In this document: positions 6,838 through 62,959 of the stretch, piece by piece
Numbering within the stretch: position 1 is the first letter of the stretch
How the letters are laid out: the number at the start of each line of letters is the position of its first letter
From: Gordius sp. MW1
Taxonomy: Eukaryota; Nematomorpha; Gordioida; Gordea; Gordiidae
DNA length: 64,000 bases
Reading direction: 5' to 3'
Assembly (NCBI GenBank): GCA_964036665.1
Contig: OZ038528.1
Span: forward strand, 17,223,245-17,287,244
Position numbers and translations under genes: made by a program
Notes under the pieces: generated by a model
The model's input: the letters and a program-made list of their open reading frames with translations, nothing else
What the model was told of the DNA's origin: nothing
The model's database searches: none

Positions 6838-8735
6838 ATTAATTGCTATGCAATTTATGGGCTCCTTTTTTGGTGTCCGTTGTCCGATGTCTGTCCGTTA
6901 CCCTCCCTATCTATTTGCATTTGGTATATTAGGTTATCGCTTTTTTAAATTAATGCATGAGAAAGAGGTGCCCCACCCCTCATCTCTATCTCCCTCGCTG
7001 TGTTATTTTTAATTGCTATGCATAAGAGGTGCCCCACCCCTCATCTCTATCTCCCTCGCTGTGTTATATATAAGATTTGTTAAATTATCTATTATATAAA
7101 CATAAATAAAAGTTGTTTACTTTTAATTGCTATGCAATTTAACTAGTTATATAATAAGCATAAATAAAAGTTGTTTACTTTTAATTGCTATGCAATTTAA
7201 CTAGTTTTTGTTATATAATAAACATAGATAAAAGTTGTTTACTTTTAATGCTATGCAATTTAACTAGTTATATAATAAACATAAATAAAAGTTGTTTACT
7301 TTTTAATTGCTATGCAATTTAACTAGTTTTGGGGTTAGAATCCCGGAGTTTTTTTTTGACTCTTATGATTGTTCTTGTTACTATCATTGATAATAAGAAT
7401 TTTTGGCCGTCCGCTGGCTGCTGACCAATGAAAAAAATGACCATTGGCCAAAATTTGAATCGAAATTATTTTTTTCGTTTTTTTTTGACTATTATGATTG
7501 TTCCTGTTTCTACCATTGCTATTATGACTTTTTGGCCGTCCGCTGGCTGCTGACCAATGTTATATAATAAACATAAATAAAAGATGTTTACTTCTAATTG
7601 CTATGCAATTTAACTAGTTTTTGGGTTAGAATCCCGGAGTTTTTTTGACTCTTATGATTGTTCTTGTTACTATCATTGATAATAAGACTTTTTGGCCGTC
7701 CGTTGGCTGCTGACCAATGAAAAAAATGACCATTGGCCAAAATGTGAATCCGAGTTTATTTTTTCGTTTTTTTTGACTATTATGATTGTTCCTGTTACTA
7801 CCATTGCTATTATGATTTTCTGGCCGTCCGCTGGCTCCTGACCGATGGAAAAAATGACCATTGGCCAAAATGTGATTCGAAATTATTTTTTTCGTTTTTT
7901 TTGACTATTATGATTGTTCCTGTTCCTACCATTGCTATTATGACTTTTTGGCCGTCCGCTGGCTGCTGACCAATGGAATAAAATGACCATTGGCCAAAAT
8001 GTGATTCGAAAACTTTTTTCCCTTTTTTTTTTGACTATTATGAATTTATATCCGCTTTTACCGTGTTCTGGCTGCTGACCAATGGAAAAAAATGACTATT
8101 GGCCAAAATGTGATTCGAAATTTTTTTTTTCGTTTTTTTTACTCTTATGAATTTATATCCACTTTTACCGTGTGCTGGCTGCTGACCAATGGAAAAAAAT
8201 GACCATTGGCCGAAGTGAGCATCAAAATTTTTTTTTCCGTTTTTTTGGCTATCATTGACTTATAGAGTATCTGTGGGTACTGACCAATAGAGAAAAAGTG
8301 ACCATTGGCCAAATTTTTGATTTTTTTAATTAAAAATTGTTCAAATTCAACAAAATATTTCTCCCAACAATTCTGCAAATTCTTATCATTGTGTTGTTTT
8401 ATAATATAATGTTTGTTAGACCCATAATCACTAAAGGCCATAAAAACTAATGTAATACGCAACTAGATGCAAACACTAAATCTAACCCTTGCCTATATTA
8501 CATTTTGCCGTTATTACATTTTGCCTATAATGGAAAATTTGTATAAATAATTTATTAATCATTAGGCATTTAATACCCCCCTATAGGCATTCTCGCCCCT
8601 TCCCACCTTTCTCGCCCATAAATTGCATAGCAAATATGATACATTTATACGAAGTACAGATGAGTCGTCCCCTCTTCCCTTCCCCTCTTCCCTTCCCTTC
8701 TCCCCCTTCCCACCAGGGCCGAAGGCCCGAGTTTT
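6838..8735 (+). mobile_element. HINE-L: Helentron-like non-autonomous tandem-repeat element
   Basis: The left end reads ATTAATTGCTATGCAATTTATGGGCTC. An inverted copy, CCCATAAATTGCATAGCAAAT, lies not at the right tip but about 100 bp inside it (8,616). The tip itself is the hairpin GGGCCGAAGGCCC (8716-8728). A 5' terminal sequence whose inverted partner is subterminal and followed by a short hairpin is the known asymmetric-TIR layout of Helentrons. Inside are a ~60-bp array (AGTTGTTTAC...CTATGCAATTTAACTAGTT, 7,080-7,330) and a ~105-130-bp array (7,370-8,300). No protein is encoded. Its inverted twin lies at 57,659-59,560. Confidence 0.66.
7370..8310 (+). repeat. ~105-130-bp tandem repeat with CCATTGG/CCAATGG hairpin
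   Basis: About eight monomers each contain GCTGACCAATGG, an A-rich spacer and CCATTGGCC, an inverted pair that can form a hairpin. Most also contain GGCCGTCCGCTGGCTG and a TTGACTATTATGATTGTTCC block. Open frames across the array reflect the repeat and are not genes. Confidence 0.8.
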
Positions 8736-40937: not shown

Positions 40938-41399
40938 GTACACATTAGTGTTGTAAAAAACCAAGGGTTTCTATTGGTTGCCTGCAAGCGTTGGCGTTTT
41001 TTTTCACCCAACCTTTTCAGTGTTAGGTGAATTTTCTTGGGAGGGCTTTGGCGTTTGGCGTTTTTGTAAAAAACACCCAAAGCGTTTTGGGTGTTTTTTT
41101 TGGGGCACCTTTGGCGTTTAGGTTTGGGTGTATTAAAGAGCTAAAGGGTTTGGGTGGATAATATTATTAACCTTTTGGTTTAGTTTTGGTCGTTTTGGGT
41201 TGGGCATGCAAATATATCGATTTGTTTATCATATTTGTGTATTTAGATTTAGGTATTGAACTTTTAATTTAAGAAAATAAAAATAAATGTATCATGACGT
41301 CACAATCTAGTAAATTCAGTAAATTATAATTAATTATTATGCATTATAGAAGTAGGTAGTAATTAATATGTTTTATTTATGAAAAAAATTTGTGAAGAT

Positions 41400-42690
41400 T
41401 TGCCCCCCCCCCTTATTTTTTACCCTCTTTCTCACCTGGGGAGGAACGGCGGGCAGGTGGGGTGTTTTGCCCCCCACCCTAATTTTTTACCCTCTTTCTG
41501 ATGCGGGGGAGAGGGGGGTGTTTTGCCCCCCCCCTAATTTTTTACCCTCTTTCTGATGCGGGGGAGAGGGGGGGGCATGGGGGGTGTTTTGCCCCCCCCC
41601 CTAATTTTTTACCCTCTTTCTGATGTGGGGGAGAGGGGGGCATGGGGGGTGTTTTGCCCCCCCCCCCTAATTTTTTACCCTCTTTCTGATGTGGGGGAGA
41701 GGGGGGGCATAGGGGGTGTTTTGCCCCCCCCCCTAATTTTTTATACTCTTTCTAATGCGGGGAGGGGGGGGGGGGCATGGGGGGTGTTTTGCCCCCCCCC
41801 CCAATTTTTTACCCTCTTTCTGATGCGAGGGAGAGGGGGGGCAGGGGGTGTTTTGCCCCCCCCCCTAATTTTTTATCCTCTTTCTAATGCGGGGGAGAGG
41901 GGGGCATGGGGGGGGGGGGGGGTGTTTTGCCCCCCCCTAGTTTTTTACCCTCTTTTTAATGCGGGGGAGAGGGAAGCATGGGGGTGTTCCGCCGCGGGGG
42001 AGAGGGGGGCATGGGGGGTGTTTTGCCCCCCCCCCCATTTTTACCCTCTTTCTGATGCGAGGGAGAGAGGGGCAACGAGTGTTTTGCCCCCCCCCCCCTA
42101 ATTTTTTATACTCTTTCTAATGCGGGGAGGGGGGGGGGCATGGGGGGTGTTTTGCCCCCCCCCCTAATTTTTTACCCTCTTTCTGATGTGGAGGAGAGGG
42201 GGGGGGGCATGGGGGGTGTTTTGCCCCCCCCCCTAATTTTTTACCCTCTTTCTGATGTGGGGGAGAGGGGGGCATGGGGGGTGTTTTGCCCCCCCCCCCC
42301 CCAATTTTTTACCCTCTTTCTGATGCGAGGGAGAGGGGGGGGGCAAGGGGTGTTTTGCCCCCCCCCCTAATTTTTACCCTCTTTCTGATGCGAGGGAGAG
42401 AGGGGCAAGGAGTGTTTTGCCCCCCCCCCCCCCCTAATTTTTTATACTCTTTCTAATGCGGGGAGGGGGGGGGCATGGGGGGTGTTTTGCCCCCCCCCCC
42501 CTTTTTTACCCTTTTTCTAATGCGGGGGAGAGGGGGGGGCATGGGGGATTATTTGCCCCCCCCCCCCAATTTTTTACCCTCTTTCTGATGCGAGGGAGAA
42601 GGGGGGCAGGGGTGTTTTGCCCCCTCCCCCTAATTTTTTACCCTCTTTCTGATGCGGGGGAGAGGGGTGCAGGTGGGGTGTTTTCAATAA
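41400..42690 (+). repeat. Left ~60-bp G/C-run minisatellite array
   Basis: Roughly twenty copies of a unit containing GGGGGAGAGGGGGGCATGGG, then GGTGTTTTGCCCCCCCCCC and TAATTTTTTACCCTCTTTCT. G-run and C-run lengths vary between copies. Each unit pairs G-tracts with C-tracts and could fold as hairpin, G-quadruplex or i-motif. Long frames across it are repeat translations. Confidence 0.92.
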
Positions 42691-43974
42691 ATAGAAAACG
42701 ATTATAAAGTGAGATTTATCTGGCCATTCGAGAGCAGATTTTGAATTCAATCCTTCAATTAAAAATTAATATTTTAATTCATTCTAAATTAATGACAGCT
42801 AACAGACCCCCATTTAAATATTCCCGGCAATAGCAATTTTAATCACAAAATTTAATTTAAATATATTTTGAATTCCTCGCCTCTTGTAAAAGATAAAGAC
42901 TTATTAATTATATAATATCCCTTTTATTTTATATTTAAACTATATTTTCAATATGAGAGAACGGCATCCCGCGCGACTCGAAATATCACCACTCCCATGT
43001 ATCATGTACATGTTCATGTACTAATCCACCCTCTCTCTCCCTTTCTCGTTGCAATGCATGCGCAACCTATCAGATTTAAGATAAGTACTAAACTAAATAT
43101 ATAAAAAAATAAGGCACAACAAGGCATGGTGTGGCGTGGGCTGGCTAGGCTCTTTATTACATCATTTTACATTCATTTCTTTTTTAACGTAACATATCAA
43201 GGTATGTAGAAGTTGCAAATCATATTATTATAAATAAAATTAATGAAAATTAAACTTTTTTTTATTATGTCAACTACTAATTAAGTCATAAGCAATTAGA
43301 AAATTAAGTTTCTTATTAAATAATAAGCAACAATTTAAATTAAGATGCTTAACTCATTTTTGTTACTCAGAAAAGTCCGTTTTTTTATGATCCTTATAAG
43401 CATTGTAAACGCGAGGTCTAAGTCAACAGGACGTAGAGTGTTGGTGCCTTGTCTTGTGAAAGCATAGTAATTAATAGCATGATATGCTTTTTGGAAATAC
43501 CTTAAGTTTTTCCATTAAATGCCCAGATAACTTAAATAGTAAAACTTACTTACCCAGATGGCAAATTTTTTTAAATTGGTAAAATTTCATATTAATATTA
43601 TATTTAATAATACATCTTATTCTTAAATGAAGTTAAATTAAAAAATTTATTTTAATTGATATGGTATATTAAGACAATTGTTGACCGCAAATCTTCAAAA
43701 ATATATTTTCGAATTTTAGAAAATCTTTGTCATATAATAAGTCAATTTTCAAAAAAAAAATAAATTTCAATAGAAAATGTTGATTAAGACATTTGTCTCC
43801 ACTGTGACCGCAAATCTTCCCAAAAATATTTTTTATAATAGTAGAACATAAATATAAGAAGTCTATTTTCAAAAAAAAATACTAATTTCAATAGAAAATG
43901 TTGATTATGACATTTGTCACCACCGTGACCGCAAAAATTCACAAAAATATTTTGAAAGGGTTAAAAAGGGCTTT
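42691..43974. other. Central spacer of the mirrored hAT-type element
   Basis: AT-rich, with no transposase motif. At 43,672-43,955 there are ~2.5 copies of a ~122-bp repeat containing TGACCGCAAATCTTC and TTTCAATAGAAAATGTTGAT. Confidence 0.7.
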
Positions 43975-45130
43975 CCGGTCCCCCCCCCCCGGGTGAGAAA
44001 GAGAGTCAAAAATAAGAAGAGGGGCGATTCACCCCCCCCCCTCTCCCCGGCATCAGAAAGAGGGTAAAAAATAAGGGGGTGGGGACAAAACACCCCCCAT
44101 GCCCCCCCCCTCTCCCCCGCATCAGAAATAGGGTAAAAAATTAAAGGAGGTGTAAAACACCCCCCTGCCAGCCCCCTCTCCCTCGCATCAGAAAGAGGGT
44201 AAAAAATTAGGGGGGAGGGGGGCCAAACACCCCCCTGCCCCCCCCCCCTCTCCCCCGCATCAGAAAGAGGGTAAAAAATTGGGGGGGGGGGCAAAACACC
44301 CCCCATGCCCCCCTCTCCCCCGGATCAGAAAGAGGGTAAATAATTAGGGGGGGGGCAAAACACCCCCTATGCCCCCCTCTCTTCCACATCAAAAAGAGGG
44401 TAAAAAATTAGGGGGGGCAAAACACCCCCCATGCCCCCCTCTCCCCCACATCAGAAAGAAAGTAAAAAAATTAGGGGGGAGGGGGGGGGGGACAAAACAC
44501 CCCCTGCCCCCTCTCCCCCACTTAAGAAAGAGGGTAAAAAATTAGGAAGGGGCAAAACACCCCCCTTCCACCCCCTATCCCTCGCATCAGAAAGAGGGTA
44601 AAAAATTGGGGGGGGGCAAAAACCCCCCATGCCCCCCTCTCCCCCACTTAAGAAAGAGGGTAAAAAATTAGGGGGGAGGGGGGCAAAACACCCCCCTGCC
44701 CCCCCCCCCCCGCCTTAGAAAGAGGGTAAAAAATTAGGGGGGGGCAAAACACCCCCCATGCCCCCCCTCTCCTCCACATCAGAAAGAGGGTAAAAAATTA
44801 GGTGGCTAGGGGCAAAACACCCCCCTCTCCCTCGCATCAGAAAGAGGGTAAAAAAGTAGGGGGGACAGGGGGGCAATACACCCCCCATGCCCCCCGCCCT
44901 CTCCCCCACATCAGAAAGAGGGTAAAAAATTAGGTGGGGGGGGGCAAAACACCCCCCATGCCCCCCTCTCCCCCACATCAGAAAGAGGGTAAAAGATTAG
45001 GGGGGGCAAAACACCCCCCTCTCCCCCGCATCAGAAAGAGGGTAAAAAATTAGGGGGGGGGGGCAAACACCCCACCTGCCCGCCGTTCCTCCCCAGGTGA
45101 GAAAGAGGGTAAAAAATAAGGGGGGGGGCA
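43975..45130 (-). repeat. Right minisatellite array, inverted relative to the left
   Basis: Roughly eighteen copies of the same unit on the opposite strand (CATCAGAAAGAGGGTAAAAA then ATTAGGGGGGG...CAAAACACCCCCC). It is not collinear copy by copy with the left array, so unit number and run length have drifted independently. Confidence 0.92.
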
Positions 45131-45796
45131 AATCTTCACAAATTTTTTTCATAAATAAAACATATTAATTTACTACCTACTTCTATAATGCATAATAATT
45201 AATTATAATTTACTGAATTTACTAGATTGTGACGTCATGATACATTTATTTTTATTTTCTTAAATTAAAAGTTCATTACCTAAATCTAAATACACAAATA
45301 TGATAAACAAATTGATATATTTGCATGCCCAACCCAAAACGACCAAAACCAAACCAAAAGGTTAATAATATTATCCACCCAAACCCTTTAGCTCTTTAAT
45401 ACACCCAAACCTAAACGCCAAAGGTGCCCCAAAAAAAACACCCAAAACGCTTTGGGTGTTTTTTACGAAAACGCCAAACGCCAAAGCCCTCCCAAGAAAA
45501 TTCACCTAACACTGAAAAGGTTGGGTGAAAAAAAACGCCAACAACTAAGCTTAGCAATACGCTGGGAAAAACCAGCCAGCCGTTTTTACAACACTAGTAC
45601 ACATGTAAGGCATTACTAATTGTTATGTTGTACACAGTTATTAGGTGCCCTATCAACTGGCCGAAAACTATCTCGCCGAATTTAATGTCCCCCGGTTAAA
45701 AACGGTCAATATATATTAATCTAAAATATAAGAATATAATAGCATATTGTATATCAGAGTGTAAATTGTATAATGTGCTAGCGTTTAAAGTCATAC

Positions 45797-46345
45797 TAAA
45801 TACTTATACTTTACACATTTTGGGAAATTTGAAAATAACTTAGTTTCTAATCCTAAAAATCTATGTAAACATGACATTTTGCTATGTATTACAAACCTTA
45901 AACTTAATTACTTATACTGTACACATTTTGGGAAATATGAAAATAACTTAGTTTTTAACCCTATAAATCTATAGAAACATGACATTTTGCTATGTATTAC
46001 AAATCTTAAACTTAAATACTTATTCTGTACACATTTTGGGAAATTTAAAAATAACTTAGGTTCTAATTCTAAAAATCTATATAAACATGACATTTTGGTA
46101 TATATTACAAATCGTAAACTTAAATATTTATACTGTATACTTTTTGGGAAATTTGGAAGTAACTTAGTTTCTAAGCCTAAAAATCTGTATAAACATGACA
46201 TTTTGCTATGTATAACAATCTTAAACTTGAATACTTATACTGTATACATTTTGGGAAATTTGAAAATAACTTAGTTTCTAATCCTAAAAATCTATATAAA
46301 CATGACATTTTGCTATGTATAACAAATCTTTAACTTGAATACTTA
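45797..46345. repeat. ~107-bp tandem satellite, about five copies
   Basis: The unit includes ACACATTTTGGGAAATTTGA, AACTTAGTTTCTAA and AAACATGACATTTTGCTATG, repeating near 45,815, 45,921, 46,029, 46,138 and 46,246. The array stops exactly at the 5' LTR of the gypsy element. Frames open on both strands are repeat translations. Confidence 0.85.
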
Positions 46346-46346
46346 T

Positions 46347-47101: not shown

Positions 47102-48631
47102 GAAAATATTCATGTTGTTCAAAAGATATCGAGGGCACAAGACGAGAGGTATTCTAAATGCCAACGTTGCGGCGGTCATCGGCCGAATCAGTGTCCCGCC
47201 TTTATGGCGTATTGTAGGAAGTGTAACAGAAAGGGGCATTACGCTCGATGTTGCAAAGGTGGTTACAAGGTACAACAAGTATGTATGACCTCCGAAAAAG
47301 ATAATGACGCCGATTCGATGGACTCAATATGCCAAATTAATCGCCGAGGGCGTCGGGCCACGATTGAGGTGAAAATCAACGGTCTCGGGACTGTGATGGA
47401 TTTCGACACTGGTGCGCAAGTATCGGTAATTAACGCATCATTACGGGATGAAATCGGCCATCCAGTACTCAGGAAGGCCATACCACCGCTAGTGTACGGT
47501 TGTACACCCCTAAAAATATTGGGTGAATCGACGGTCAAGGTCCAGGTGGGAAATCGAATGAAAAATTTAACGGTGGTAGTTAGCAAGGGTAAGGAGGTAC
47601 CACTTTTTGGACTACCATGGAGTTTAGCCTTCAACTTAGTACTTCCCCCGATGGTTGAAATTCATAAGGTAAGTAGTGCTAACAACTCGCTTACTAGAGA
47701 TTTTGATAAATATAGTATGGTTTTTGATGGGAAACTAGGATTAATAAATTCTTGCGAACCAATAATTATCCATTTGAAGTCAAATGCAACTCCTAGATCT
47801 TGGCAAGCTAGGAGGGTTCCGTTTCCTTTGAGAGCCCCTCTAGAGAAAGAGCTCCAAAGATTGGTTATCGCAGGTGTGTTAAAGCCAGTGGATCCCAACA
47901 TTACACCCATTCGATGGGCTACTCCAATTGTGATCGTAAGGAAACCTAATAATGACATCCGTATCTGCGCCGATTTCAAGGTTACGGTGAATCCAAATTT
48001 AATTATAGATTACCATCATATTCCAACATTTCAAGATGTTGCCGCAAAAATTTCGGGAGGAAGGAAGTTCACGAAAATTGATCTTAAAGATGCATATCTG
48101 CAAATGCCTGTTTCCGAGAAATCACAAGATCTCTTAGTTATTTCAACCAATTTGGGTTATTACAAATACTGTCGGCTTCCGTTTGGGTTGTCCTCAGCTC
48201 CAGCCATTTTCCAGAGGTTTATGGACAACTTACTAAAAGATTGTCCTAAGACAGGAGTTTACCTTGATGATATAATAATCACCGGCGAAAATGATGAGGA
48301 GCACATTGCAAACGTTAATAAAGTTTTAATGAAATTAAAAGATTCGGGGATTAAAGCACAGTTTAATAAAATTCAGTTTTTGGAAGATTCGGTTGAATTT
48401 TTAGGGTTTATGATTGATAAAGAAGGTATCCATCCCTCCGGATCAAAGATACAAGCCATTTTAGATATGAAAAGACCCACTAATAGATCCGAGTTAAAAT
48501 CTTTTCTTGAGATGTTTTGCTATCAAGAAAAATTTATTCCTAGCATCATGGTATTTTGTCACCATTGCACCGACTCACTGGTACGAAATCTAGATGGGTA
48601 TGGTCACAGGTTGAGGAGCAAATATTTTTAA
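47102..48631 (+). pseudogene. gypsy nucleocapsid-protease-reverse transcriptase
   Basis: The frame opens with two zinc knuckles, CQRCGGHRPNQC and CRKCNRKGHYARC, then a retroviral-type protease (DFDTGAQVSVI) and RT. RT landmarks are ADFKVTVNPNL, KIDLKDAYLQMPV, LPFGLSSAPAIFQ and the catalytic YLDDIIITG. RT is in frame to about 48,530, after which frameshifts throw the connection region out of frame and the product ends at 48,631. It would copy the element's RNA to DNA in virus-like particles. This copy is broken. Confidence 0.88.
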
Positions 48632-48683
48632 AGCTAAATCGATTTTAAAGAATTGCAATACCTTAATCCCTTATTCACCATCC

Positions 48684-49280
48684 TTGCCCTTGGTGCTGGA
48701 AACCGACGCTTCGGAGAAAGGATTTGGGGCAGTGTTGCCTCATGCATGTGAGGCTGGACTATTGCGTCCTATTGCGTATGCTTCGAGAACACTTTCAAAC
48801 GCCGAGGAAAGTTATGCTACTATTGATAAGGAAGCTAAAGCCATTTTATGGGCGGTCCAAAAATTTCACACCTACATTTATGGAAGGAAATTTATTATAA
48901 GAACGGATCATAAACCTTTAGGGCGTTTGTTTGGGGAAAATAGGGATCTTCCAAAAATAGTAAATAATCGATTGATGCGTTGGGCTTATCATCTATCGGC
49001 CTACGATTTTTCAGTGGAGTACATTGAAGGCAAACGGAATAAAGTAGCTGACGCACTTTCAAGAGCGCCCTTACTTCTTACAGAAGAGATTCACAACAGC
49101 GATGATGTATCAATGCTTAGGATAAAAAACATCCTCCTTAATGTGTTATCACTATCGGGAAAGACTATTAGTGAAGAAATTGATAAGGATTTTAAATTGC
49201 GTAAAATAAAGAACTTTATAAATAAAGGTTGGCCCTCACGCAAAAAGGATATTCCACAAAAAATTTGGGGTCTTTTATAA
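48684..49280 (+). pseudogene. gypsy RNase H fragment
   Basis: LVLETDASEKGFGAVL carries the first catalytic aspartate; YATIDKEAKAILWAVQKF and IRTDHKPL follow, as in Ty3/gypsy RNase H. The segment is out of frame with the RT upstream (break near 48,628) and with integrase downstream (break near 49,270). Confidence 0.85.
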
Positions 49281-49320
49281 TCGCAGAACAGAGCTAAGTT
49301 GTGAAAACAATTTATTATTT

Positions 49321-50556
49321 ATGGATGGGCGGATGGTTATACCACAATCCCTTCGGCAGCGAGTGTTAATTAATCTGCATAAAGGTCACCCCGGTATATT
49401 GGCTATGAAATCTATCGGGAGGTTCTATTGCTGGTGGCCTCAACTGAGTTCGGAGATTGAAAATTTTGTGAACGCTTGTAAAGCATGTCAACAGAATCGT
49501 GGGGACGCTAATGAAGTTCCATTGTTTTCATGGAATGTCCCCGAGTTTCCTTGGGAAAGAATTCATATCGATTTTGCGGGACCAATTGAGGGTTATTCGT
49601 GGTTAATAGTAGTCGACGGATTTTCAAAATGGATGGATGTTGAACTCTTACAGTCAACAACAACTCAGGCCTCTCTTCGAATCCTTAGGAAGTGGTTTGC
49701 CCTTTATGGGGTCCCTAGACAAATTGTTTCGGACAACGGACCCCAATTCATGGGGTTGGAGTTTCAAAATTTTTGCAAGGAGAATAACATCATACACATG
49801 AAATCTTCTCCATATCATCCTAAGACTAACGGGTTAGCAGAGAGAGGAATTCAAACTTTGAAGAAAAGGTACGCGGCTATCAGAATGCAGAAGACGAACC
49901 CTCATGAATGTTTGTCAGATGTCTTGATGACTTACCGAATAAGCACTTTAAATTCAACAGGATCATCACCATATAAGCTAATGTTTGGACATATGAAAAC
50001 GGCTTGGGATTGGGCACGATCTCCGGTTAAGTCAAAATTGAAAAAACAAGTTTGGTCAACCGAGGAGCGGCATAACAAAGGATTAAAGACTCGGGAATTT
50101 CTTTCAGAACAGCCGGTAAGGAATGAAACGAGACCCGGATGGCGTGAAGGTTCGATAATAACTAGAACGGGGCCCTTGTCTTACTCAGTGGAAGCAAATG
50201 GAAAGAAATTGCGGAAGCATGCCGACCAGCTAAAGAATAGATTCGTAGATTCAAGAGAAGAGCCTGTACAATCTTCTTCTCCACACGCATCAGTTACGCC
50301 TTGGGGAGAGGTGGAGTTTGAACCGTCACTTACGCCAGGAGAAGAGACTGTGTTGGAAGCGTCATTTACGCCAGGAGAAGAGACGGTATTGGAACCGTCA
50401 CTAAAGCCAGGAGAAGAGACGGTATTAGAACCGTCAATTACGCCAGGAGAAGAGACGGATTTCGCCGGGGAGGAGAGTCAATCTAACTTAGGTCAAACGT
50501 CTCGCCCGAAACGCGATGTTCGTCCCCTGCAAGACTTATCGAGGAAAAATAATTAA
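49321..50556 (+). CDS. gypsy integrase, largely intact frame
   Basis: The HHCC zinc-binding domain is seen as LHKGHPG and CKACQ. The catalytic triad sits in HIDFAGP, SDNGPQF and GLAERGIQT. The 411-residue frame closes with a ~12-residue repeat (PSLTPGEETVLE and variants, four to five copies, 50,310-50,460), an acidic tail unusual for the domain. The start given is an internal methionine; the natural protein begins upstream across a frameshift near 49,270. Confidence 0.85.
   Translation: MDGRMVIPQSLRQRVLINLHKGHPGILAMKSIGRFYCWWPQLSSEIENFVNACKACQQNRGDANEVPLFSWNVPEFPWERIHIDFAGPIEGYSWLIVVDGFSKWMDVELLQSTTTQASLRILRKWFALYGVPRQIVSDNGPQFMGLEFQNFCKENNIIHMKSSPYHPKTNGLAERGIQTLKKRYAAIRMQKTNPHECLSDVLMTYRISTLNSTGSSPYKLMFGHMKTAWDWARSPVKSKLKKQVWSTEERHNKGLKTREFLSEQPVRNETRPGWREGSIITRTGPLSYSVEANGKKLRKHADQLKNRFVDSREEPVQSSSPHASVTPWGEVEFEPSLTPGEETVLEASFTPGEETVLEPSLKPGEETVLEPSITPGEETDFAGEESQSNLGQTSRPKRDVRPLQDLSRKNN
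50310..50460 (+). repeat. 36-bp minisatellite in the integrase tail
   Basis: CCGTCACTTACGCCAGGAGA AGAGAC-type units repeat four to five times in frame, giving the PGEETVLEP motif. The unit is a multiple of three, so the frame is kept. Confidence 0.85.
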
Positions 50557-50741: not shown

Positions 50742-51130
50742 GGTGTGCTTTAAAAAAAGGGGAGAGTGATTGATGATTTTCGGAGTTGAGTTGAAATGAA
50801 ATAGAAAGAGATGCGTGTCTACTACGTCTAGCTAGGGAAATACTGATAAATATATTAGGGTAAGTAAGGGGTGAGGAGGTGGTATTGGGCATCAAAAATG
50901 GTATAGTAAAAAAAGAATGCAAAAATAATTATGAAAAGGTATACTAAAAATTATTAATTTAATTATTATTGTTTATTTTAAATTTGAAAATCCGATGCCG
51001 ATCCGATCCGACTAAAATAAAATGTTGATCCGATCCGATCCGACTTCCAAAATTAAAATGTTGACCCGATCCGCCGAATCCGAGTTCGGACGGATCGGGT
51101 CGGATCGGATTGATCCGTGCACACCTGTAG
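50742..51130. other. Spacer with a probable hAT terminus
   Basis: Bases 50,990-51,128 are rich in GATCCGATCCGA repeats and end, on the minus strand, as ACAGGTGTGCACGGATC. CAGGTGTGCACGG-type ends occur on hAT elements. The opposite end was not found. Confidence 0.4.
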
Positions 51131-52108
51131 TATAATCTAAAGATTTGTAGGAAGAACTGATACACCCTGTCCTAAAAAATCATAGAATGTTATAAATAAA
51201 CTTACAAATAATTTGAATAAGCTATATAATATATAAGTGCTAATAATTATAAGTTACCTTCATGTGAGATGTCAAGAGTTATCTAAATATCTCCTGCACT
51301 TTCAAGAATCTCAGTATTAATTTAAGGAATCATTGATTTAACCTATTTATATCTAGAATAGACTTTTACTTGATGTAATTAAGCTTTAACAATTAACAAA
51401 TGATAATACTCTAGCTTTGTTGTATAATCTAAAGATTTATAGGAAGAACTGATACACCCTCTCATAAAAAATCGTAGAATGTTATAAATAAACTTACAAA
51501 TAATTTGAATAAGCTATATAATATATAAGTGCTAATAATTATAAGTTACCTTCATGTGAGATGTCAAGAATTATCTAAATATCTCCTGCACTTTTAAGAA
51601 TCTCAGTATTAATTTAAGGAATCATTGATTTAACCTATTTATATCTAGAATAGACTTTTATTTGATGTAATTAAGCTTTAACAATTAACAAATGATAATA
51701 TTCTAGCTTTGTTGTATAATCTAAAGATTTGTAGGAAGAACTGATACACCCTCTCCTAAAAAATCATAGAATGTTATAAATAAACTTACAAATAATTTGA
51801 ATAAGCTATATAATATATAAGTGCTAATAATTATAAGTTACCTTCATGTGAGATGTCAAGGGTTATCTAAATATCTCCTGCACTTTTAAGAATCTCAGTA
51901 TTAATTTAAGGAATGATTTAACCTATTTATATCTAGAATAGACTTTTATTTGATGAAATTAAGCTTTAACAATTAACAAATGATAATATACTAGCTTTGT
52001 TGTATAATCTAAGGATTTGTAGGAAGAATTGATACACCCTCTCCTAAAAAATCATAGAATGTTATAAATAAACTTACAAATTATTTGGATAAGCTATATA
52101 ATATATAA
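51131..52108. repeat. 292-bp tandem satellite, ~3.4 copies
   Basis: The unit starts TATAATCTAAAGATTTGTAG and recurs at 51,131, 51,423, 51,715 and 52,003 (spacing 292, 292, 288). Copies differ by a few substitutions and one 4-bp deletion. There is no coding capacity. Confidence 0.93.
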
Positions 52109-52234
52109 GAACTTAAGACATTTTACATTTGTAAAACATTTTACACTTGGAAAATTAAAATTAACGGGAGTTTAGATATTTAGAGATTTTTACTTTTGTC
52201 AATTGAAACGATACGGGCTCAAAGCAGCAGTTTG

Positions 52235-54001: not shown

Positions 54002-55972
54002 TTAAGCATTGTACAATTTAATTTGTTCCTCATGCCTAGTTTCAATCTTATTTGTTTCAGCATTTCTAATCTTATAAATCCTTGAGCCTACCTGCTCCAC
54101 TATCTCCCCTAGCACCCATCTAGGTTCCTTCAAGTAGTTCCTATACCAAACCTTCTGATTTAGCTTTAATCTAGGACTATCTGACCTAGGTAGTACTGGT
54201 TCGAGATATTGTAACAAGTCAGGCGGGTACCTCAACTTTCTGCTTAAGAATTCATAGCTAACTGAAGGACGATTAGGAAACCTTGGAGCCATATTATGAT
54301 ATAACCTTAACATCCATGTACCTCCCTTCGTCTCTTTAGCTACTCTTAACCATTTTTTGACTATTCCTACATACCTCTCCACCTGCCCATTTGAGCTAGG
54401 GTGATAAGGAGGCGTTAGTAAATGGCTAATCTTAAATTCTAAACAAAATTTTTTAAATTCTACGCTTACGAAAGCCTTCCCATTATCTGTAACAATGTAG
54501 GTAGGTAATCCGTACGCGCCAAATAATTCTTTTAAAATATTTATTGTTACTTTACCTGACATGCTAAAAACGTTCTTAAATTCCGTCCAACCGGAATATG
54601 CATCAACAATTAATATAAAACGTTTCTTGTCAAATTCGAAAAAATCAACATGTATCTTCTCCCAGGGAGATTTGGGACGTGGCCATCTAGCCTTTCTATT
54701 CCTCCGCGGCATTGGTGCGTCAAGCTTACATAGCCCGCACTGCCGGACAAAGTTTTCAATGTCTTTGTTAATTTTAGGCCACCAGACATATTGTCTAGCT
54801 AGTCCCTTCATCTTAACCATCCCTGCATGACCTTGATGTAAAACGCCTAACACCTCTTGGCGAATTTTACTGGGAACCACTAACCTTTCCTGTCTCTTAA
54901 GCACGTCATCTTCTAAATACATTTCGTTTAAAACATGTTTAAAGGGTGATGGTATGTTAGTGTCCTCGTCCAAGCCAAGTAAAATGTTCGTAACCTTAAT
55001 TATATCAGGGTCTGCATTACTCTCGGTTATAATGTCTTTTAAATCCAAAATTTTTATTATGTTTATGACCTCTCCTCCAACAATCTCACAAGATAAAGAA
55101 TCACTATTAGCTTCGATGTCATCTGCGCCCAAACGCGATAATACATCAGCTAAATCATTGTCTTCACCTTTGCAATATCTAAGAGTTAAGGTAAAATTTC
55201 CTAACATAACAAGCCAACGCTGTAATCTACCAGACATTAGTAGTTGGTCGTTAGTCTTTTTAAACAAAGCAACTAGAGGTTTATGATCCGTGACTACAGT
55301 AAACGATTTACCAATCAAATATTCTCGACATCGCTGTAATCCGTACATCATTGCTAGAGCCTCCCGTTCAATAACAGAATATCGGACCTCCGTTTTATTT
55401 AGCTTACGCGAAAAATACAAAATAGGGTGTTCAACATTATCCTCGACTTGACATAACGCGCCGCCGATGCCTACATTTGACGCATCGACTCTTAAAATCT
55501 GTTGCTTGTCGGGGTTGTAACACCTTAATACGGGTTTAGTTAGTAAAATATTTTTTAAATAATTAAAATTATCTGTATGCGTCTCGTCCCATTTAAATAA
55601 AACAGACTTTTTGGTCAATTCATATAATGGTCCAGCGAATTCCATATAATTAGTTATAAAGCGACTATAATAATTCATTACACCCAAAAATGACGAAAGT
55701 TCCTTTTTATTAGTTGGTATTTTAATATCCCTAATTGCCGTAACTTTGTCAAACCTAGGTTGAATATTACCATCACTTAAAATATGACCTAAATATAAGA
55801 TCTGTTCTGTTCCAAAAACGCATTTCTTAGCCGAAACCTTTAATCCTTTTACTTTGATTAATTCAAGAATTTTGATTAGGCGCATATCATGTTCTTCTCT
55901 AGTTATACCCGTGACTAAAATGTCGTCTAAATAAAATATAACGCCGTCTAAATTACTAAAAATGGAAGCCAT
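54002..55972 (-). CDS. gypsy pol, second part: RT end, RNase H, integrase
   Basis: The 656-residue frame begins just before the RT catalytic motif (FYLDDILVTG). RNase H shows LRVDASNVGIGGALCQ, EREALAMMYGL and VTDHKPL. Integrase shows LHQGHAGMVKMK with CGLCK (zinc domain), then HVDFFEFD, VTDNGKAF and NGQVERYV for the DDE triad, and a GPY-like C-terminus ending in HEEQIKLYNA. It is uninterrupted to its stop at 54,002. The N-terminal half lies in another frame (55,948-57,087), so one frameshift near 55,970 splits pol in this copy. Confidence 0.9.
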   Translation of the reverse strand: MASIFSNLDGVIFYLDDILVTGITREEHDMRLIKILELIKVKGLKVSAKKCVFGTEQILYLGHILSDGNIQPRFDKVTAIRDIKIPTNKKELSSFLGVMNYYSRFITNYMEFAGPLYELTKKSVLFKWDETHTDNFNYLKNILLTKPVLRCYNPDKQQILRVDASNVGIGGALCQVEDNVEHPILYFSRKLNKTEVRYSVIEREALAMMYGLQRCREYLIGKSFTVVTDHKPLVALFKKTNDQLLMSGRLQRWLVMLGNFTLTLRYCKGEDNDLADVLSRLGADDIEANSDSLSCEIVGGEVINIIKILDLKDIITESNADPDIIKVTNILLGLDEDTNIPSPFKHVLNEMYLEDDVLKRQERLVVPSKIRQEVLGVLHQGHAGMVKMKGLARQYVWWPKINKDIENFVRQCGLCKLDAPMPRRNRKARWPRPKSPWEKIHVDFFEFDKKRFILIVDAYSGWTEFKNVFSMSGKVTINILKELFGAYGLPTYIVTDNGKAFVSVEFKKFCLEFKISHLLTPPYHPSSNGQVERYVGIVKKWLRVAKETKGGTWMLRLYHNMAPRFPNRPSVSYEFLSRKLRYPPDLLQYLEPVLPRSDSPRLKLNQKVWYRNYLKEPRWVLGEIVEQVGSRIYKIRNAETNKIETRHEEQIKLYNA

Positions 55973-57087
55973 TGCTGTTGAAAAATAGCAGCAGACACGC
56001 TTAAGCCGAAAGGTAATCTCTTGAATCTAAATAGTCCGGCATCAGTATTAATTGCTAAAAGCCGCGACGACCTTTCGTCTACCTTAAGCTGCAAATACGC
56101 ATTAGCCAAATCAATTTTTGAAAAAAATTTAGCTCCCTGTAATTTAACGAAAATCATTTCTAACCTCGGCAGCGGGTATTTTACTTCAATAACAAATCTA
56201 TTAACTGTAACCCTATAGTCAGCACAGACGCGTACCGTACCGTCAGGTTTCCTGACCGGTACTAGAGGTGTTGCCCATTCTGAATAATCTATGGGTTCAA
56301 TCACCTCGTCTTTAAGCCAACTTTTAATTACAGAATCTACCTTATCTTTTATAATTAAAGGTAAACGTCTTGCAGGACAAAATTTAGGTATGGCGTTTGA
56401 ATTTACTCTAATTGAGACAATTCTATCCTTCACACAGCCCAAATTATTCTCAAAAATGTCCGAAAATTTAGCCAAAATTAATGTAATTTCTGCTGGCCAT
56501 GTTGTGACAAGTTCTGCCTTTGCCCTCGGAACTGATTCATGGACAACTGATTTCAATGAAATCCTGCCCTCTGAATTAGTTATAAAATGGGGTGCTTCAC
56601 GGCTACAAGACTCAGCGTCCCCGCTCTCTAAAACACCACTGGGCAATCGCGATGCCACTATGGACTCAGCTTTAAAACTACAAATTTTATTTAAATTATC
56701 TGACTCACAAATTCCCCACCAGTTTAATTTAGGGCCTATTACCTTTATCCATGGCCATCCCATTATGTTGTCCACATCCTCCTTGAGTATATATAACTCT
56801 AGATTAACCTTATAATTATTCACTGTTACTATTACATTAACTTTACCTAATACATTAATATAAGTATTGTTAACTTGTTTAGCTAAAAGACCTGCTGCCT
56901 TATATTTTCTTAGCGGCCAATATTTTTTAAAACTACGGTGACTTATGATCGAAATGGAAGCGCCCGTATCTATCAACATTTTAATATAAATATCATCAAT
57001 ATTAATCACCGCTGATGGTGTAATTGATGCTTTAAACATATTGATCGAATCCTCGCGGCGCCATTTCCCAAATTCAATGTGCGACAA
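55948..57087 (-). pseudogene. gypsy pol, first part: protease and N-terminal RT
   Basis: The protease motif LIDTGASISIIS lies near residue 40. RT fingers and palm follow: ADYRVTVNRFV, KIDLANAYLQLKV, LPFGLSVSAAIFQQ. Directly after that motif a one-base shift (about 55,970) puts the catalytic YLDD motif into the next frame. The overlap of the two frames is ~25 bp. Apart from this break the coding is open, matching the low LTR divergence. Confidence 0.88.
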
Positions 57088-57093
57088 GATTAG

Positions 57094-57658: not shown

Positions 57659-59560
57659 ATCTCGGGCCTTCGGCCCTCGTGGGAAGGGGGAGAAGGGAAG
57701 GGAAGAGGGGAAGGGAAGAGGGGAAGGGAAGGGGGGACGACTCATCTGTACTTCGTATAAATGTATCATATTTGCTATGCAATTTATGGGCGAGAAAGGT
57801 GGGAAGGGGCGAGAATGCCTATAGGGGGGTATTAAATGCCTAATGATTAATAAATTATTTATACAAATTTTCCATTATAGGCAAAATGTAATAACGGCAA
57901 AACGTAATATAGGCAAGGGTTAGATTTAGTGTTTGCATCTAGTTGCGTATTACATTAGTTTTTATGGCCTTTAGTGATTATGGGTCTAACAAACATTATA
58001 TTATAAAACAACACAATGTTAAGAATTTGCAGAATTGTTGGGAGAAATTTTTTGTTGAATTTGAACAATTTTTAATTAAAAAAATCAAAAATTTGGCCAA
58101 TGGTCACTTTTTCTCTATTGGTCAGTACCCACAGATACTCTATAAGTCAATGATAGCCAAAAAAACGGAAAAAAAAATTTTCGAAACACATTTTGGCCAA
58201 TGGTCATTTTTTTCCATTGGTCAGCAGCCAGGACACGGTAAAAGTGGATATAAATTCATAATAGTAAAAAAAAAACGAAAAAAAAAATTTCGAATCACAT
58301 TTTGGCCAATGGTCATTTTTTTCCATTGGTCAGCAGGCAGGACACGGTAAAAGTGGATATAAATTTATAATAGTCAAAATAAACGAAAAAACAATTTTCG
58401 AATCATATTTTGGTCAATGGTCATTTTATTCCATTGGTCAGCAGCCTGCGGACGGCCAAAAAGTCATAATAGCAATGGTAGGAACAGGAACAATCATAAT
58501 AGTCAAAAAAAAACGAAAAAAATAATTTCGATTCACATTTTGGCCAATGGTCATTTTTTCCATTGGTCAGCAGCCAACGGACGGCCAAAAAGTCATAATA
58601 GCAATGGTAGTAACAGGAACAATCATAATAGTAAAAAAAAACGAAAAAATAAACTCGGATTCACATTTTGGCCAATGGTCATTTTTTTCATTGGTCAGCA
58701 GCCAGCGGACGGCCAAAAAGTCTTATTATCAATGATAGTAACAAGAACAATCATAAGAGTCAAAAAAAACTCCGGGATTCTAACCCCAAAACTAGTTAAA
58801 TTGCATAGCAATTAGAAGTAAACATCTTTTATTTACGTTTATTATATAACATTGGTCAGCAGCCAGCGGACGGCCAAAAAGTCATAATAGCAATGGTAGA
58901 AACAGGAACAATCATAATAGTCAAAAAAAAACGAAAAAAATAATTTCGATTCACATTTTGGCCAATGGTCATTTTTTTCATTGGTCAGCAGCCAGCGGAC
59001 GGCCAAAAATTCTTATTATCAATGATAGTAACAAGAACAATCATAAGAGTCAAAAAAAACTCCGGGATTCTAACCCCAAAACTAGTTAAATTACATAGCA
59101 ATTAAAAAGTAAACAACTTTTATTTATGTTTATTATATAACTAGTTAAATTGCATAGCATTAAAAGTAAACAACTTTTATCTATGTTTATTATATAACAA
59201 AAACTAGTTAAATTGCATAGCAATTAAAAGTAAACAACTTTTATTTATGCTTATTATATAACTAGTTAAATTGCATAGCAATTAAAAGTAAACAACTTTT
59301 ATTTATGTTTATATAATAGATAATTTAACAAATCTTATATATAACACAGCGAGGGAGATAGAGATGAGGGGTGGGGCACCTCTTATGCATAGCAATTAAA
59401 AATAACACAGCGAGGGAGATAGAGATGAGGGGTGGGGCACTCTTTCTCATGCATAGCAATTAAAAATCGATAACCTAATATACCCAATGCAAATAGATAG
59501 GGAGGGTAACGGACAACGGACAACCAAAAACGAGCCCATAAATTGCATAGCAATTAATAT
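57659..59560 (-). mobile_element. HINE-R: Helentron-like element inside the gypsy leader
   Basis: It is the inverted counterpart of HINE-L (6,838-8,735). Hairpin GGGCCTTCGGCCC at 57,663-57,675, subterminal ATTTGCTATGCAATTTATGG at 57,769, and terminal CCCATAAATTGCATAGCAAT at 59,535. The CCAATGG array (58,090-59,050) and the ~60-bp array (59,060-59,330) are also present. It interrupts the LTR element, so it inserted after it. No coding. Confidence 0.68.
58090..59050 (-). repeat. CCAATGG/CCATTGG hairpin repeat array of HINE-R
   Basis: Eight or so monomers of ~105-130 bp, each with GGCCAATGGTCATTTTTTCC and ATTGGTCAGCAGCC. It corresponds to 7,370-8,310 in inverted orientation, with a different order of monomer variants. 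Confidence 0.8.
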
Positions 59561-60126: not shown

Positions 60127-60928
60127 TTAACTTGGCTTTTTAATAATCACTATAACTTATAAGGGTTGGCTGGCTTCTGTAGAAGTCTTTATTTTGCTTT
60201 CGCATATAATTAGCTAATGACCACTGGTTGTCTTTAATTTTTTAACCTCCCCCAAACACAAATTTCATTTTTGCTTTTGGGCCTGACTGATTACCTTAAT
60301 ATATATATTTTTTGGCAATTTGTTGCTTTATAACGAATAATTACGAAACTGGCTGAATAATTCCCTGCAAATTAATGATGACCGTTGCTTACTTAGTCTT
60401 TATTTTACCCTGGCCCGAGAGAAAAATCCTTGTTAATTGCTACTTTTTTGCTGTTTATTTTGTTCATAATTTTTTTTGGCAACTTGTATAGACTGTTGCT
60501 TTATGACGGATTAATGCGAAATTGGCTAAATTATTCCGTGCAAATTAATTATCTAATTATTTCATAAATTCACTTAAAAGAGAAATGTAAGATTCACTTT
60601 AATAGATAATTTAAAATGTAGATGGCAGTATAAAGGATAATTTTAATTCGGAAATATTTATTCTCTTTATTGGAGTATAATTCTAAATAACCCAAATAAA
60701 AATTTTTATTATAACATTCTTAAATAAAATAGATAGATGGAATAGCCCATCATTACAAAAATTTCTTAGCCCCATACTTTTTAAAAGAAGGGAGGGAGCA
60801 GTCTATTAAATGGATTAATCTAAACCCACATTTAGGTTAAAATAATAATTTAGCCATGTTTGTTCCCCTTTTTATTCAATATATATATGGATACGATAAC
60901 TATAGACATTCAAAAGTCATCGCCATTT
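60127..60928. other. Spacer with an imperfect ~165-bp direct repeat
   Basis: TTTTTTGGCAA(T/C)TTG...TTGCTTTATAACGAATAATT at about 60,308 recurs at about 60,471 with substitutions. Nothing else is recognised. Confidence 0.5.
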
Positions 60929-61712
60929 GATAGCGTCCTCACTAAAAGAAGCCCGTTTTGCTACAAAGATCGATATGAAATCCGCTTTTTTCTCTATTCC
61001 CCTTGACCCAGCGATCAGTCACTTGTTCGGCTTCAAAGTGGGAAGACGAAAATATTGTTACAACGTCCTGCCTATGGGAGCAAGCTTCTCCCCCTACGTG
61101 TTACAGCAGATAATGCTTGACCTGTGTGCGAAATCGGTCACCACTTGTAGGTACAACGTGTACCTCGACGATGTATTGATCTATGGGCCTACATACGAAA
61201 TTGTCCGAGCCAACACTCAATCTTTCCAAAGGCTGTGCTCGAAATGGAATCTCTCTATTAACCCCCGCAAATCGATCCTTACACCCGTACAGGAGCTGTC
61301 ATACTTGGGTATCGATATCAACCTCATACGTCACACGCTCAATATCAATGACAAGTTCTTCGAAAAAATAGATGCTGCGTCTAGAATCATGTCCCACTTT
61401 ACAACCACAAACACAAAACCACACCCCCTAGTGACACAAATATGCCTAGGAATCCTCACGCATTACATATACATGGTGACAGGATGGTCCAAATATATGT
61501 CCCCTTGGTACAACTTATTCTTAAGCGACAACCCGGTCCCATTCAATACCAGGTGGATGACAATCAAGCTAATGGAATTACGAGAGGCCCTTACCTTCCC
61601 ACTACCCATGCAATTGACCTTTTCCCACGTTGTTTCCGCGGATGCCTCAACAAAATACCTGGGAATATCCTTTCGAGGTCACAACATGTCAATTACCAAG
61701 GCAGACGCGATG
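60929..61712 (+). pseudogene. Inverted RT copy plus RNase H fragment
   Basis: The plus-strand frame has RT motifs ATKIDMKSAFFSIPL, LPMGASFSPYVLQQ and catalytic YLDDVLIYG, then LGIDIN. It is truncated at the 5' side. Unlike the minus-strand copy it continues past RT into a tether and VSADASTKYLGISF, an RNase H-like first motif. It then runs into its own mirror image at 61,713. Bases 60,929-61,504 are the left arm of the palindrome. Confidence 0.82.
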
Positions 61713-62288
61713 GGGGACATATATTTGGACCATCCTGTCACCATGTATATGTAATGCGTGAGGATTCCTAGGCATATTTGTGTCACTAGGGGGTGTGGTT
61801 TTGTGTTTGTGGTTGTAAAGTGGGACATGATTCTAGACGCAGCATCTATTTTTTCGAAGAACTTGTCATTGATATTGAGCGTGTGACGTATGAGGTTGAT
61901 ATCGATACCCAAGTATGACAGCTCCTGTACGGGTGTAAGGATCGATTTGCGGGGGTTAATAGAGAGATTCCATTTCGAGCACAGCCTTTGGAAAGATTGA
62001 GTGTTGGCTCGGACAATTTCGTATGTAGGCCCATAGATCAATACATCGTCGAGGTACACGTTGTACCTACAAGTGGTGACCGATTTCGCACACAGGTCAA
62101 GCATTATCTGCTGTAACACGTAGGGGGAGAAGCTTGCTCTCATAGGCAGGACGTTGTAACAATATTTTCGTCTTCCCACTTTGAAGCCGAACAAGTGACT
62201 GATCGCTGGGTCAAGGGGAATAGAGAAAAAAGCGGATTTCATATCGATCTTTGTAGCAAAACGGGCTTCTTTTAGTGAGGACGCTATC
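60929..62288. repeat. 576-bp near-perfect inverted duplication of RT
   Basis: Arms 60,929-61,504 and 61,713-62,288 have equal length and differ by a single base that I noticed (G against A in the codon after the LPM motif, about 61,078 and 62,139). The spacer is 208 bp. Arm borders are abrupt (GATAGCGTCC outside, GTCCCC inside). Confidence 0.92.
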
Positions 62289-62959
62289 AATGGGATGGAT
62301 TTGAGGGAAAACGGGTATTTTATGAAGTTGCGTGAGACTGTACCCAGGTCAGCTATTAGTCTAGGGCTTCCATCACTCTTCGGGATGAAGTACATTGAGG
62401 ATGGGATTGTTGTAGAAGACTCTCTAACCACTTGAGAATCGACCACTTCGTATGCTAGCTGTCTATGTTCCCGAGAAATAGGGTGCACCCGGGTTGGTAC
62501 GAAGTATTTTCTTCCATTCGAGGTTATTGCCATTCTATCGTACAGCGGCTTGAAACCATGACGTGCCACTTTGTTTGTGAAGGAAGATTGTGAACGATGA
62601 GGTTTAAGGATGGTAGTTTCGATGTTTAACGGATGAGTGAAGGTGGAGTGAGAAAAGTTAACGATTAAGATTTGGGGAAAAAGAGGGATATTGGATGGTT
62701 CGCTGATGATTGGTGGATCCTCGCCGTCAGGACCCACCACCGTCCAATCATTTTGGAGATGTTCCGGCACATTAGCTGGAGAGGGTGGCGACGTGGTAAA
62801 GGGCGGATCGGGCTCCTCTACCTCCGGACCATTGTCAGGGGAGATCGTGTTTAGGGCGAGACTCCTGGCTATCGAGGTGATGTTAGTTAGCCAGCCAGGA
62901 ATCCGTTCGTCTCCCTCTGACCTCAGCGGGTATACACCACTGCTGAGGGTCGCCGCCAC
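61713..62959 (-). pseudogene. Retroelement pol: N-terminal region and reverse transcriptase
   Basis: Upstream of RT are ~150 residues, P/E-rich then basic, without a D(S/T)G protease motif. Next come STTIPSSMYFIPKSDGSPRL and ADLGTVSRNFIKYPFSLKSI, then the RT block with YLDDVLIYG. The frame runs off into the inverted spacer before RNase H. Absence of protease and the form of the RT fit a DIRS-like element better than Ty3/gypsy, but the clade is unresolved. No tyrosine recombinase or integrase lies in the window. The start at 62,959 is a GTG; the frame is open further upstream, so the true start is uncertain. Confidence 0.75.

Follow-up and report, generated by a model that had tools for sequence, protein, structure and literature searches.

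A probable hAT-superfamily foldback element in Gordius sp. MW1, and relatives with the same ends but an unrelated minisatellite in their arms

Introduction

Why should a transposon give over half its length to two mirrored arrays of a minisatellite, and how do both arms come by the same repeat? These questions are raised by a 4,651-bp element of Gordius sp. MW1 (Nematomorpha), which lies in a window of 64,000 nucleotides on contig OZ038528.1 (C2:17223245-17287244; positions below are those of the window unless a contig is named). To our knowledge, the origin of identical tandem arrays in both arms of a foldback is a standing question. The genome searched (211.8 Mb, 12 contigs) contains relatives that bear on it: among elements with the same ends, one slot holds one of two unrelated minisatellites, a G-run/C-run unit or an AT-rich unit of 110 bp. 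As relatives with the same ends carry an unrelated repeat, the arrays look like replaceable baggage rather than working parts. The explanation that we favour, and consider likely, is that of a foldback transposon of the hAT superfamily, non-autonomous and recently active, which is moved in trans and carries its arrays as passengers.

Layout of the element

The element is bounded by two copies of an 8-bp target site duplication (TSD), and a 14-nt tip, TAGTGTTGTAAAAA, can be read directly at both of its ends. Its parts are as follows, with the basis of each assignment in parentheses.

40938-40945, no strand: left TSD, GTACACAT, 8 bp (read from the sequence; duplications of other copies)
40946-45596, + strand: whole element, 4,651 bp, without transposase (sequence, copy comparison, open frames of the spacer)
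40946-40989, + strand: left-specific end, the 14-nt tip plus 30 bp foreign to the right end (end comparison)
40990-41401, + strand: left copy of the flanking domain, 98.8% to the right copy (arm alignment)
41068-41099, no strand: 32-bp near-palindrome in the left flanking domain, with GGGTGTTTT once per strand (sequence, word count)
41370-41388, + strand: junction GTTTTATTTATGAAAAAAA, common to the sister family; the array slot starts just inward of it
41404-42685, + strand: left G-run/C-run array, about 20 units (unit splitting)
41433-41459, + strand: left outermost-unit marker, CACCTGGGGAGGAACGGCGGGCAGGTG (sequence, genome probe)
42686-43975, + strand: spacer, or middle domain, 1.29 kb (longest frame fully within it, 70 aa)
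43682-43956: 121-bp direct repeats inside the spacer
43976-45129, - strand: right G-run/C-run array, mirrored, about 18 units (unit splitting)
45073-45099, - strand: right outermost-unit marker (sequence, genome probe)
45130-45542, - strand: right copy of the flanking domain (arm alignment)
45543-45596, - strand: right-specific end, the 14-nt tip plus 40 bp foreign to the left end (end comparison)
45597-45604, no strand: right TSD, GTACACAT (read from the sequence)

Inward of the tip the two ends differ for 30-40 bp and are then inverted copies of each other again for about 412 bp. The specific end measures 44 bp on the left and 54 bp on the right, of which only the 14-bp tip is common to both. 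The inverted arms (40990-41571 and 44961-45542) are 92% complementary, and 98.8% over the 413 bp outside the arrays. Together the arrays make up 52.4% of the element, in agreement with a preliminary description, which from the letters alone had assigned more than half of it to two inverted arrays of about 20 and 18 units. In our splitting, the left array yields 19 pieces, one of them of about 1.5 units, and the right array 14, three of which contain two or three units. The whole has the layout of a foldback transposon: long terminal inverted repeats (TIRs), each composed of a flanking domain and a tandem-repeat outer domain, around a middle domain. The spacer contains no long open frame and the element is without transposase; a search of the window against Rfam at gathering thresholds found no family.

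Insertion as a unit, and the pairing of ends

The preliminary description had also concluded, from the exact 8-bp duplication and the hAT-like tips, that the structure moved as a unit. Other copies and empty sites bear this out. Eight G/C-type copies have both ends in view (the window copy, L039-L044, and L046; L045 is cut off), and six of these carry exact 8-bp TSDs around the arms. So do L028 and L029, with ATACGTAC on both sides. These two and L034, whose right end lay outside the fetched stretch, share an identical flank of 93 bp and then diverge; a single insertion into a dispersed repeat was therefore probably multiplied along with that repeat. A 31-nt probe for the joint of the host repeat found nine empty sites (six exact, one with one mismatch, two with two mismatches; none in the control), of which eight have ATACGTAC unchanged and one, a two-mismatch site, is altered inside the 8 bp. 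In the three that were fetched (L065-L067), the flanks of the occupied copies meet, matching at 92-100% and overlapping by exactly 8 bp, so that the insertion was clean. For the host repeat, which starts CCTTTCGTTTCAAAATGCC and carries the element as a passenger, the flanks examined (those of L028, L029, and L034, and L065-L067) reveal no evident duplication belonging to it.

The sequences that define the family are common. Exact matches genome-wide number 2,362 for the 21-nt unit core (none for its reversed control) and 4,691 for the 14-nt tip (31 for its control), far too many for either to be a matter of chance. The tip also marks other elements: eight loci, read at the first of its places, have differing subterminal sequences, mostly CGGCTGG-like. 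More specific probes, none of which had a match in its reversed control, gave 175 places for 25 nt of the spacer (at most two mismatches) and, with at most three mismatches, 269 for the 27-nt outermost-unit marker, 205 for 32 nt of the left end, and 288 for 37 nt of the right end. A 455-bp query from the left end had 614 first-look candidates; the best 40 were scored and all of them match over the full query, nine (including the window's own) with the top score and 100% identity.

The ends follow a rule. Among 100 places listed for the exact outer markers, 33 of 35 neighboring pairs within 8 kb are mirrored, at distances of 1.3-5.9 kb. On contigs C1-C4, with 68 exact left-end and 93 exact right-end probe matches, opposed ends at most 12 kb apart form 57 left-right, no left-left, and three right-right combinations, and the nearest opposed right tip pairs 54 of the 68 left tips. 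Elements thus pair a left-type with a right-type end, and the ends are not interchangeable even though the rest of the arms is mirrored. As a separate observation, right tips recur in C2:5564906-5659072 with a period of about 37 kb and alternating strand, which points to a large tandem duplication.

A sister family with a different array

Seven further copies (L082-L088) were fetched as having the same ends but lacking the spacer probe. In four of them (L082-L085) the flanking domains match that of the window copy at about 90-93% over 280 bp, and the junction GTTTTATTTATGAAAAAAA is retained together with small islands of spacer. The slot, however, is occupied by a mirrored AT-rich unit of 110 bp, with no G/C unit; the numbers of copies in the left and right arms are 3.9 and 9.0 (L082), 9.7 and 9.7 (L083), 6.7 and 6.7 (L084), and 17.0 and 8.9 (L085). 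A BLAST comparison of the 110-bp unit with the window's left array gave no match. In L088 (980 bp), two flanking domains enclose roughly a single unit of this kind; L086 is a miniature of 229 bp, and L087 is a complex locus. Exact TSDs are present in four of the seven (L082, L083, L084, and L088); that of L086 is one base off, and those of L085 (in a GTAT repeat) and L087 are unmatched.

This second repeat is itself widespread, with 536 places for a 32-nt probe (at most one mismatch; none in the reversed control), and those listed are mostly in mirrored groups. Use of the slot was counted at 57 left tips on C1-C3, by markers within 3.5 kb of the tip (for the G/C type, exact matches of the outer marker and of the spacer and 11 C1 matches of the unit core; for the other type, 32 places of the 110-bp unit, with each C1-C3 cluster represented). 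Forty tips have the G/C type, ten the 110-bp type, none both, and seven neither.

A working role for the arrays is the first alternative to consider: they might supply extra transposase-binding sites, as has been proposed for Galileo, with the units helping the ends to come together. There is a candidate site, GGGTGTTTT; no other 9-mer of the flanking domain is found five or more times in an array. Each strand of the flanking domain has it once, the left array 16 times, and the right array 12 times, and it is absent from the remainder of the window's + strand; for Galileo, the consulted portion of one account places the THAP-domain sites in the tandem repeats of the TIRs (PMC3688188). Neither strand of any of the five sister copies with a 110-bp unit (L082-L085 and L088) contains it, however, even in the flanking domain, and these copies keep the same ends, four of the five with exact TSDs. 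A 9-mer common to T- and G-rich DNA also carries little weight. A binding-site role is weakened by its absence there, and we regard it as unlikely.

Turnover of the arrays and copying between arms

Copies of the window's family have been active recently. L039 lies on a different contig from the window copy, yet the two differ by no substitution in 2,488 run columns and by five run gaps. Their long runs are less stable: 25 of 35 G/C runs of at least 9 differ in length, against one of 50 runs of 6-8 and neither of two A/T runs of at least 9. L040 and L046 likewise have no substitution, yet differ by whole units. With runs collapsed, arrays of the same side in different copies are 94.8-100% identical over aligned columns, with gaps of unit size; left and right arrays of one copy are 94.1-96.9% identical. 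In six of eight copies the left-right alignment scores no higher than the best obtained when the inner units were shuffled 30 times, while L042 and L043 do better. Arms of the G/C lineage therefore drift apart by unit turnover. A tree of the inner TIRs of this family, made to test for homogenization of the arms, had too few differences to decide.

The sister copies tell a different story. Over the first 420 bp from the junction, the left and right arms of L083 are 99.5% identical, as are those of L085, whereas no comparison between copies among L082-L085 exceeds 96.4%, and none involving L083 or L085 exceeds 96.0%. For L083 the identity extends over 1,508 bp, arrays included, at 99.67%. One arm has apparently been copied onto the other; this is the simplest reading of these two copies and would account for the arrival of one new repeat in both arms.

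These results bear on two claims of the preliminary description. That the arrays are not collinear agrees with the six copies of eight (L042 and L043 being the exceptions). That they expand independently stands for the window's subfamily, where gain and loss of units are specific to an arm, but does not extend to those sister copies whose arms are nearly identical.

Superfamily and favored explanation

Both tips begin TAGTGTTG, which fits the hAT tip pattern YAGNGNTG. The flanks point the same way. Of 30 left flanks, 20 have T at position 2 and 21 have A at position 7 (binomial p = 1.7e-4 and 3.7e-5, assuming 33% T or A); the set includes three copies of one site and two flanks in (GTAT)n, not all of them established as TSDs, and with 28 independent flanks the values are 6.9e-4 and 1.7e-4. 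This preference fits Ac-type hAT elements, nTnnnnAn being the TSD preference given for the Ac-type element hobo in the part of a report that was available (PMC8961557).

Membership in another superfamily with duplications of about 8 bp (P/Galileo or Mutator) is a second alternative, the resemblance to hAT then being superficial. The element has no transposase of its own to settle the matter, and arrayed-arm foldbacks are on record, by the excerpts consulted, from both groups: Galileo from P, and Tetris, with TSDs of 8-10 bp, from Mutator according to its authors (PMC4168063, PMC4079207). Against this stand the combination of an 8-bp TSD with the nTnnnnAn preference, the agreement of the tip with the hAT pattern, and the abundance of hAT-domain matches in this genome. 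We consider this alternative improbable, somewhat more so than the binding-site role.

In the explanation that we favor, a hAT transposase encoded elsewhere would recognize the ends and the flanking domain and move the element in trans. The arrays would be passengers, growing and shrinking by slippage or unequal exchange. Breaks in one arm would be repaired by copying the other, which would keep the arrays mirrored and allow the slot to be refilled with a new repeat.

Several observations weigh against this explanation. The TSDs of L041 and L044 do not match, and L082, among the sister copies with exact TSDs, sits in a (GTAT)n repeat. For 14 of the 68 left tips on C1-C4, a distance of 12 kb includes no right tip in opposed orientation. 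The arms of L082 and L084 are 95.2% identical in each case, with no excess within the copy, so that two of the four sister copies compared lack a copying signal, and the arm identity of L083 and L085 could alternatively come from a fresh inverted duplication. The differences in run length between the window copy and L039 are either real slippage or homopolymer sequencing error. Finally, a search for an autonomous partner found none: no tip pair surrounds a transposase in 22 distinct hAT loci (L047-L052, L057-L060, and, with their downstream stretches, L068-L079); these are a partial sample, a Pfam search for the hAT dimerization domain having had 3,413 first-look candidates, of which the best 150 were scored.

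The nearest case among them is L051, where a one-mismatch tip (CAGTGTTG...) lies, correctly oriented, 0.9 kb downstream; neither L051 itself nor the 2 kb upstream of it (L080) contains a partner for this tip. In L071 an exact tip is 2 kb off and points outward. Long copies of the element (L053, L054, and L081) have frames of up to 107, 146, and 137 aa, the longest resembling translated array or other repeat. One of the hAT loci, L057 (C6:5653600-5660200), consists of two hAT genes in inverted orientation, with a frame of 573 aa apiece and about 98% like L058; the best named matches of this frame are in insects, with Rhizophagus lower down.

As a third alternative, the arrays might be kept for structures of their G/C runs (G-quadruplex, i-motif, or hairpin) that would stall replication or promote excision or silencing. 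In predicted folds, the C runs and G runs of one unit can pair; the + strand of the left array has nine G-quadruplex motifs, against a mean of 4.1 and a maximum of nine in 100 shuffles; and the long G/C runs vary in length between copies. The other three strand counts (3, 1, and 4), however, are near their shuffle means (2.5, 1.5, and 3.5), and folding z-scores for five units (-0.70, 0.35, 0.14, -2.05, and -1.27) show one clearly better than its shuffles. Sister copies L082-L085, moreover, have at most one run of six or more G or C. The earlier suggestion that each unit could form a G-quadruplex or i-motif is not clearly upheld, as no count exceeds the shuffle maximum, a single unit of five folds clearly better, and the sister family is without such arrays. 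A structural role of this kind appears very doubtful. Mirrored repeats made by the assembler are very improbable: although long homopolymers and inverted repeats pose difficulties for assembly and the arms were read from the assembly, copies at unrelated loci carry TSDs of their own, and the order of units on each side, the pairing of ends, and the matching empty sites are all consistent.

Comparison with known foldback elements

Foldbacks with arrayed arms are already known; what is new is a hAT-like variant, together with a sister family that keeps its ends, flanking domain, and junction and has an unrelated, mirrored 110-bp array. Galileo of Drosophila, a foldback-like element of the P superfamily, is similar in having very long TIRs that grow by tandem repeats, unequal numbers of repeats in arms that change independently, chimeric copies, and recent activity, as far as the parts consulted relate (PMC3573991, PMC4168063). 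According to the same partial sources it differs in its P-type transposase and in its repeats, which are about 140-210 bp long and few per arm. Its TSDs are mostly of 7 bp in the sections available, with 8 bp in three copies (PMC4168063), against 8 bp in the exact cases here, so that TSD length alone is not decisive. Substitution of an unrelated array for an existing one is not described in the portions of text consulted (PMC3573991, PMC4168063).

Tetris, a foldback of Drosophila virilis, shares the three-part layout (flanking, tandem-repeat outer, and middle domains) and likewise has no open reading frame, in the excerpt of its description used here; unlike the present element it was placed in Mutator by its authors, has a repeat of about 220 bp, and is represented by three structurally complete copies (PMC4079207). 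Its TSDs are given there as 8-10 bp. Those of Mutator are of about 9 bp, compared to 8 bp in our exact cases. FoldBack4 (FB4) of D. melanogaster is also palindromic and non-autonomous, with minisatellite-like tandem modules inside; its arrays, however, are variants of one module set, and the part of the description available makes no assignment to hAT (PMC4022104).

With the Ac family of hAT elements (hobo, Hermes, and Ac) the element shares the 8-bp TSD, the nTnnnnAn preference, and short tips. A difference lies in the TIRs, put at 10-25 bp for hAT in the section of the report consulted (PMC8961557), whereas here inverted ends of about 460 bp and the arrays lie behind ends of 44 and 54 bp. 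A literature search, by titles and abstracts and mostly outside subscription papers, found no hAT foldback with arrayed arms. Hikosaka and Kawahara (2004), going by their title as cited in PMC2872659, are said to have described lineage-specific tandem repeats carried by a miniature inverted-repeat transposable element in Xenopus.

The combination of near-identical copies, two alternative arrays, and a rule for left and right ends makes it testable whether the arrays promote transposition or are a by-product of repair templated by the other arm. Copying between arms, if true, would give transposons a direct route to making and spreading minisatellites.

A related minisatellite between other ends

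One further locus, L048 (with L061), has mirrored arrays of a G/C unit related to the window's (78-79% over 164-166 bp), while its inverted ends, compared by BLAST, do not match the flanking domain of the window copy. The L048 unit is abundant, with 2,031 places for a 25-nt probe (at most one mismatch; none in the control), although the type was examined with its ends in a single copy, which is interrupted by another transposon. In the window's family the outermost unit has CTCACC, versus CTGATG in most inner units; CTCACC is also the reading in most L048 units whose core can be read. This pattern is as expected if the edges of the arrays are old and the middle turns over.

Three combinations are thus represented: ends A with the G/C unit (the window type), ends A with the 110-bp unit (the L082 type), and ends B with a related G/C unit (the L048 type). 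It is conceivable, at somewhat less than even chances, that mirrored minisatellite arms form a modular layer over transposon ends, in which arms are copied, new repeats spread, and minisatellites cross to unrelated ends. Within the L048 foldback itself (C7:4982628-4985870), at about 851-2000, lies a hAT fragment with a dimerization domain and ends like AGAGGCCTGCACGGGTC and GCAGGCCTC.

Other features of the window

The window contains a second mirrored structure (6968-8710 and 57695-59440), with arm pieces 90-100% complementary and about 49-52 kb apart. It has tandem arrays of 58, 128, and 13 bp, and an outward match of 88% over 166 bp; it is either a single giant element or a pair of copies from another foldback family. 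An insertion in the spacer of L081 matches its arms at 91-94% over up to 1.3 kb.

A perfect inverted repeat of 578 bp (60927-61504 and 61713-62290; 100%), its halves 208 bp apart, overlaps reverse-transcriptase frames. There are two Gypsy-type elements (47102-50556 and 54002-57093), the second of which has a pol with its best match, at 40% identity, in the hairworm Gordionus. The genome also has 29 cadherin matches, 28 of them above the cut-off (the control search responds in one of 14 genomes as well); together with the pol match they point to a likely animal source, possibly a nematomorph. Near the element are two further tandem arrays, with units of 108 bp (45797-46346) and 292 bp (51126-52109).

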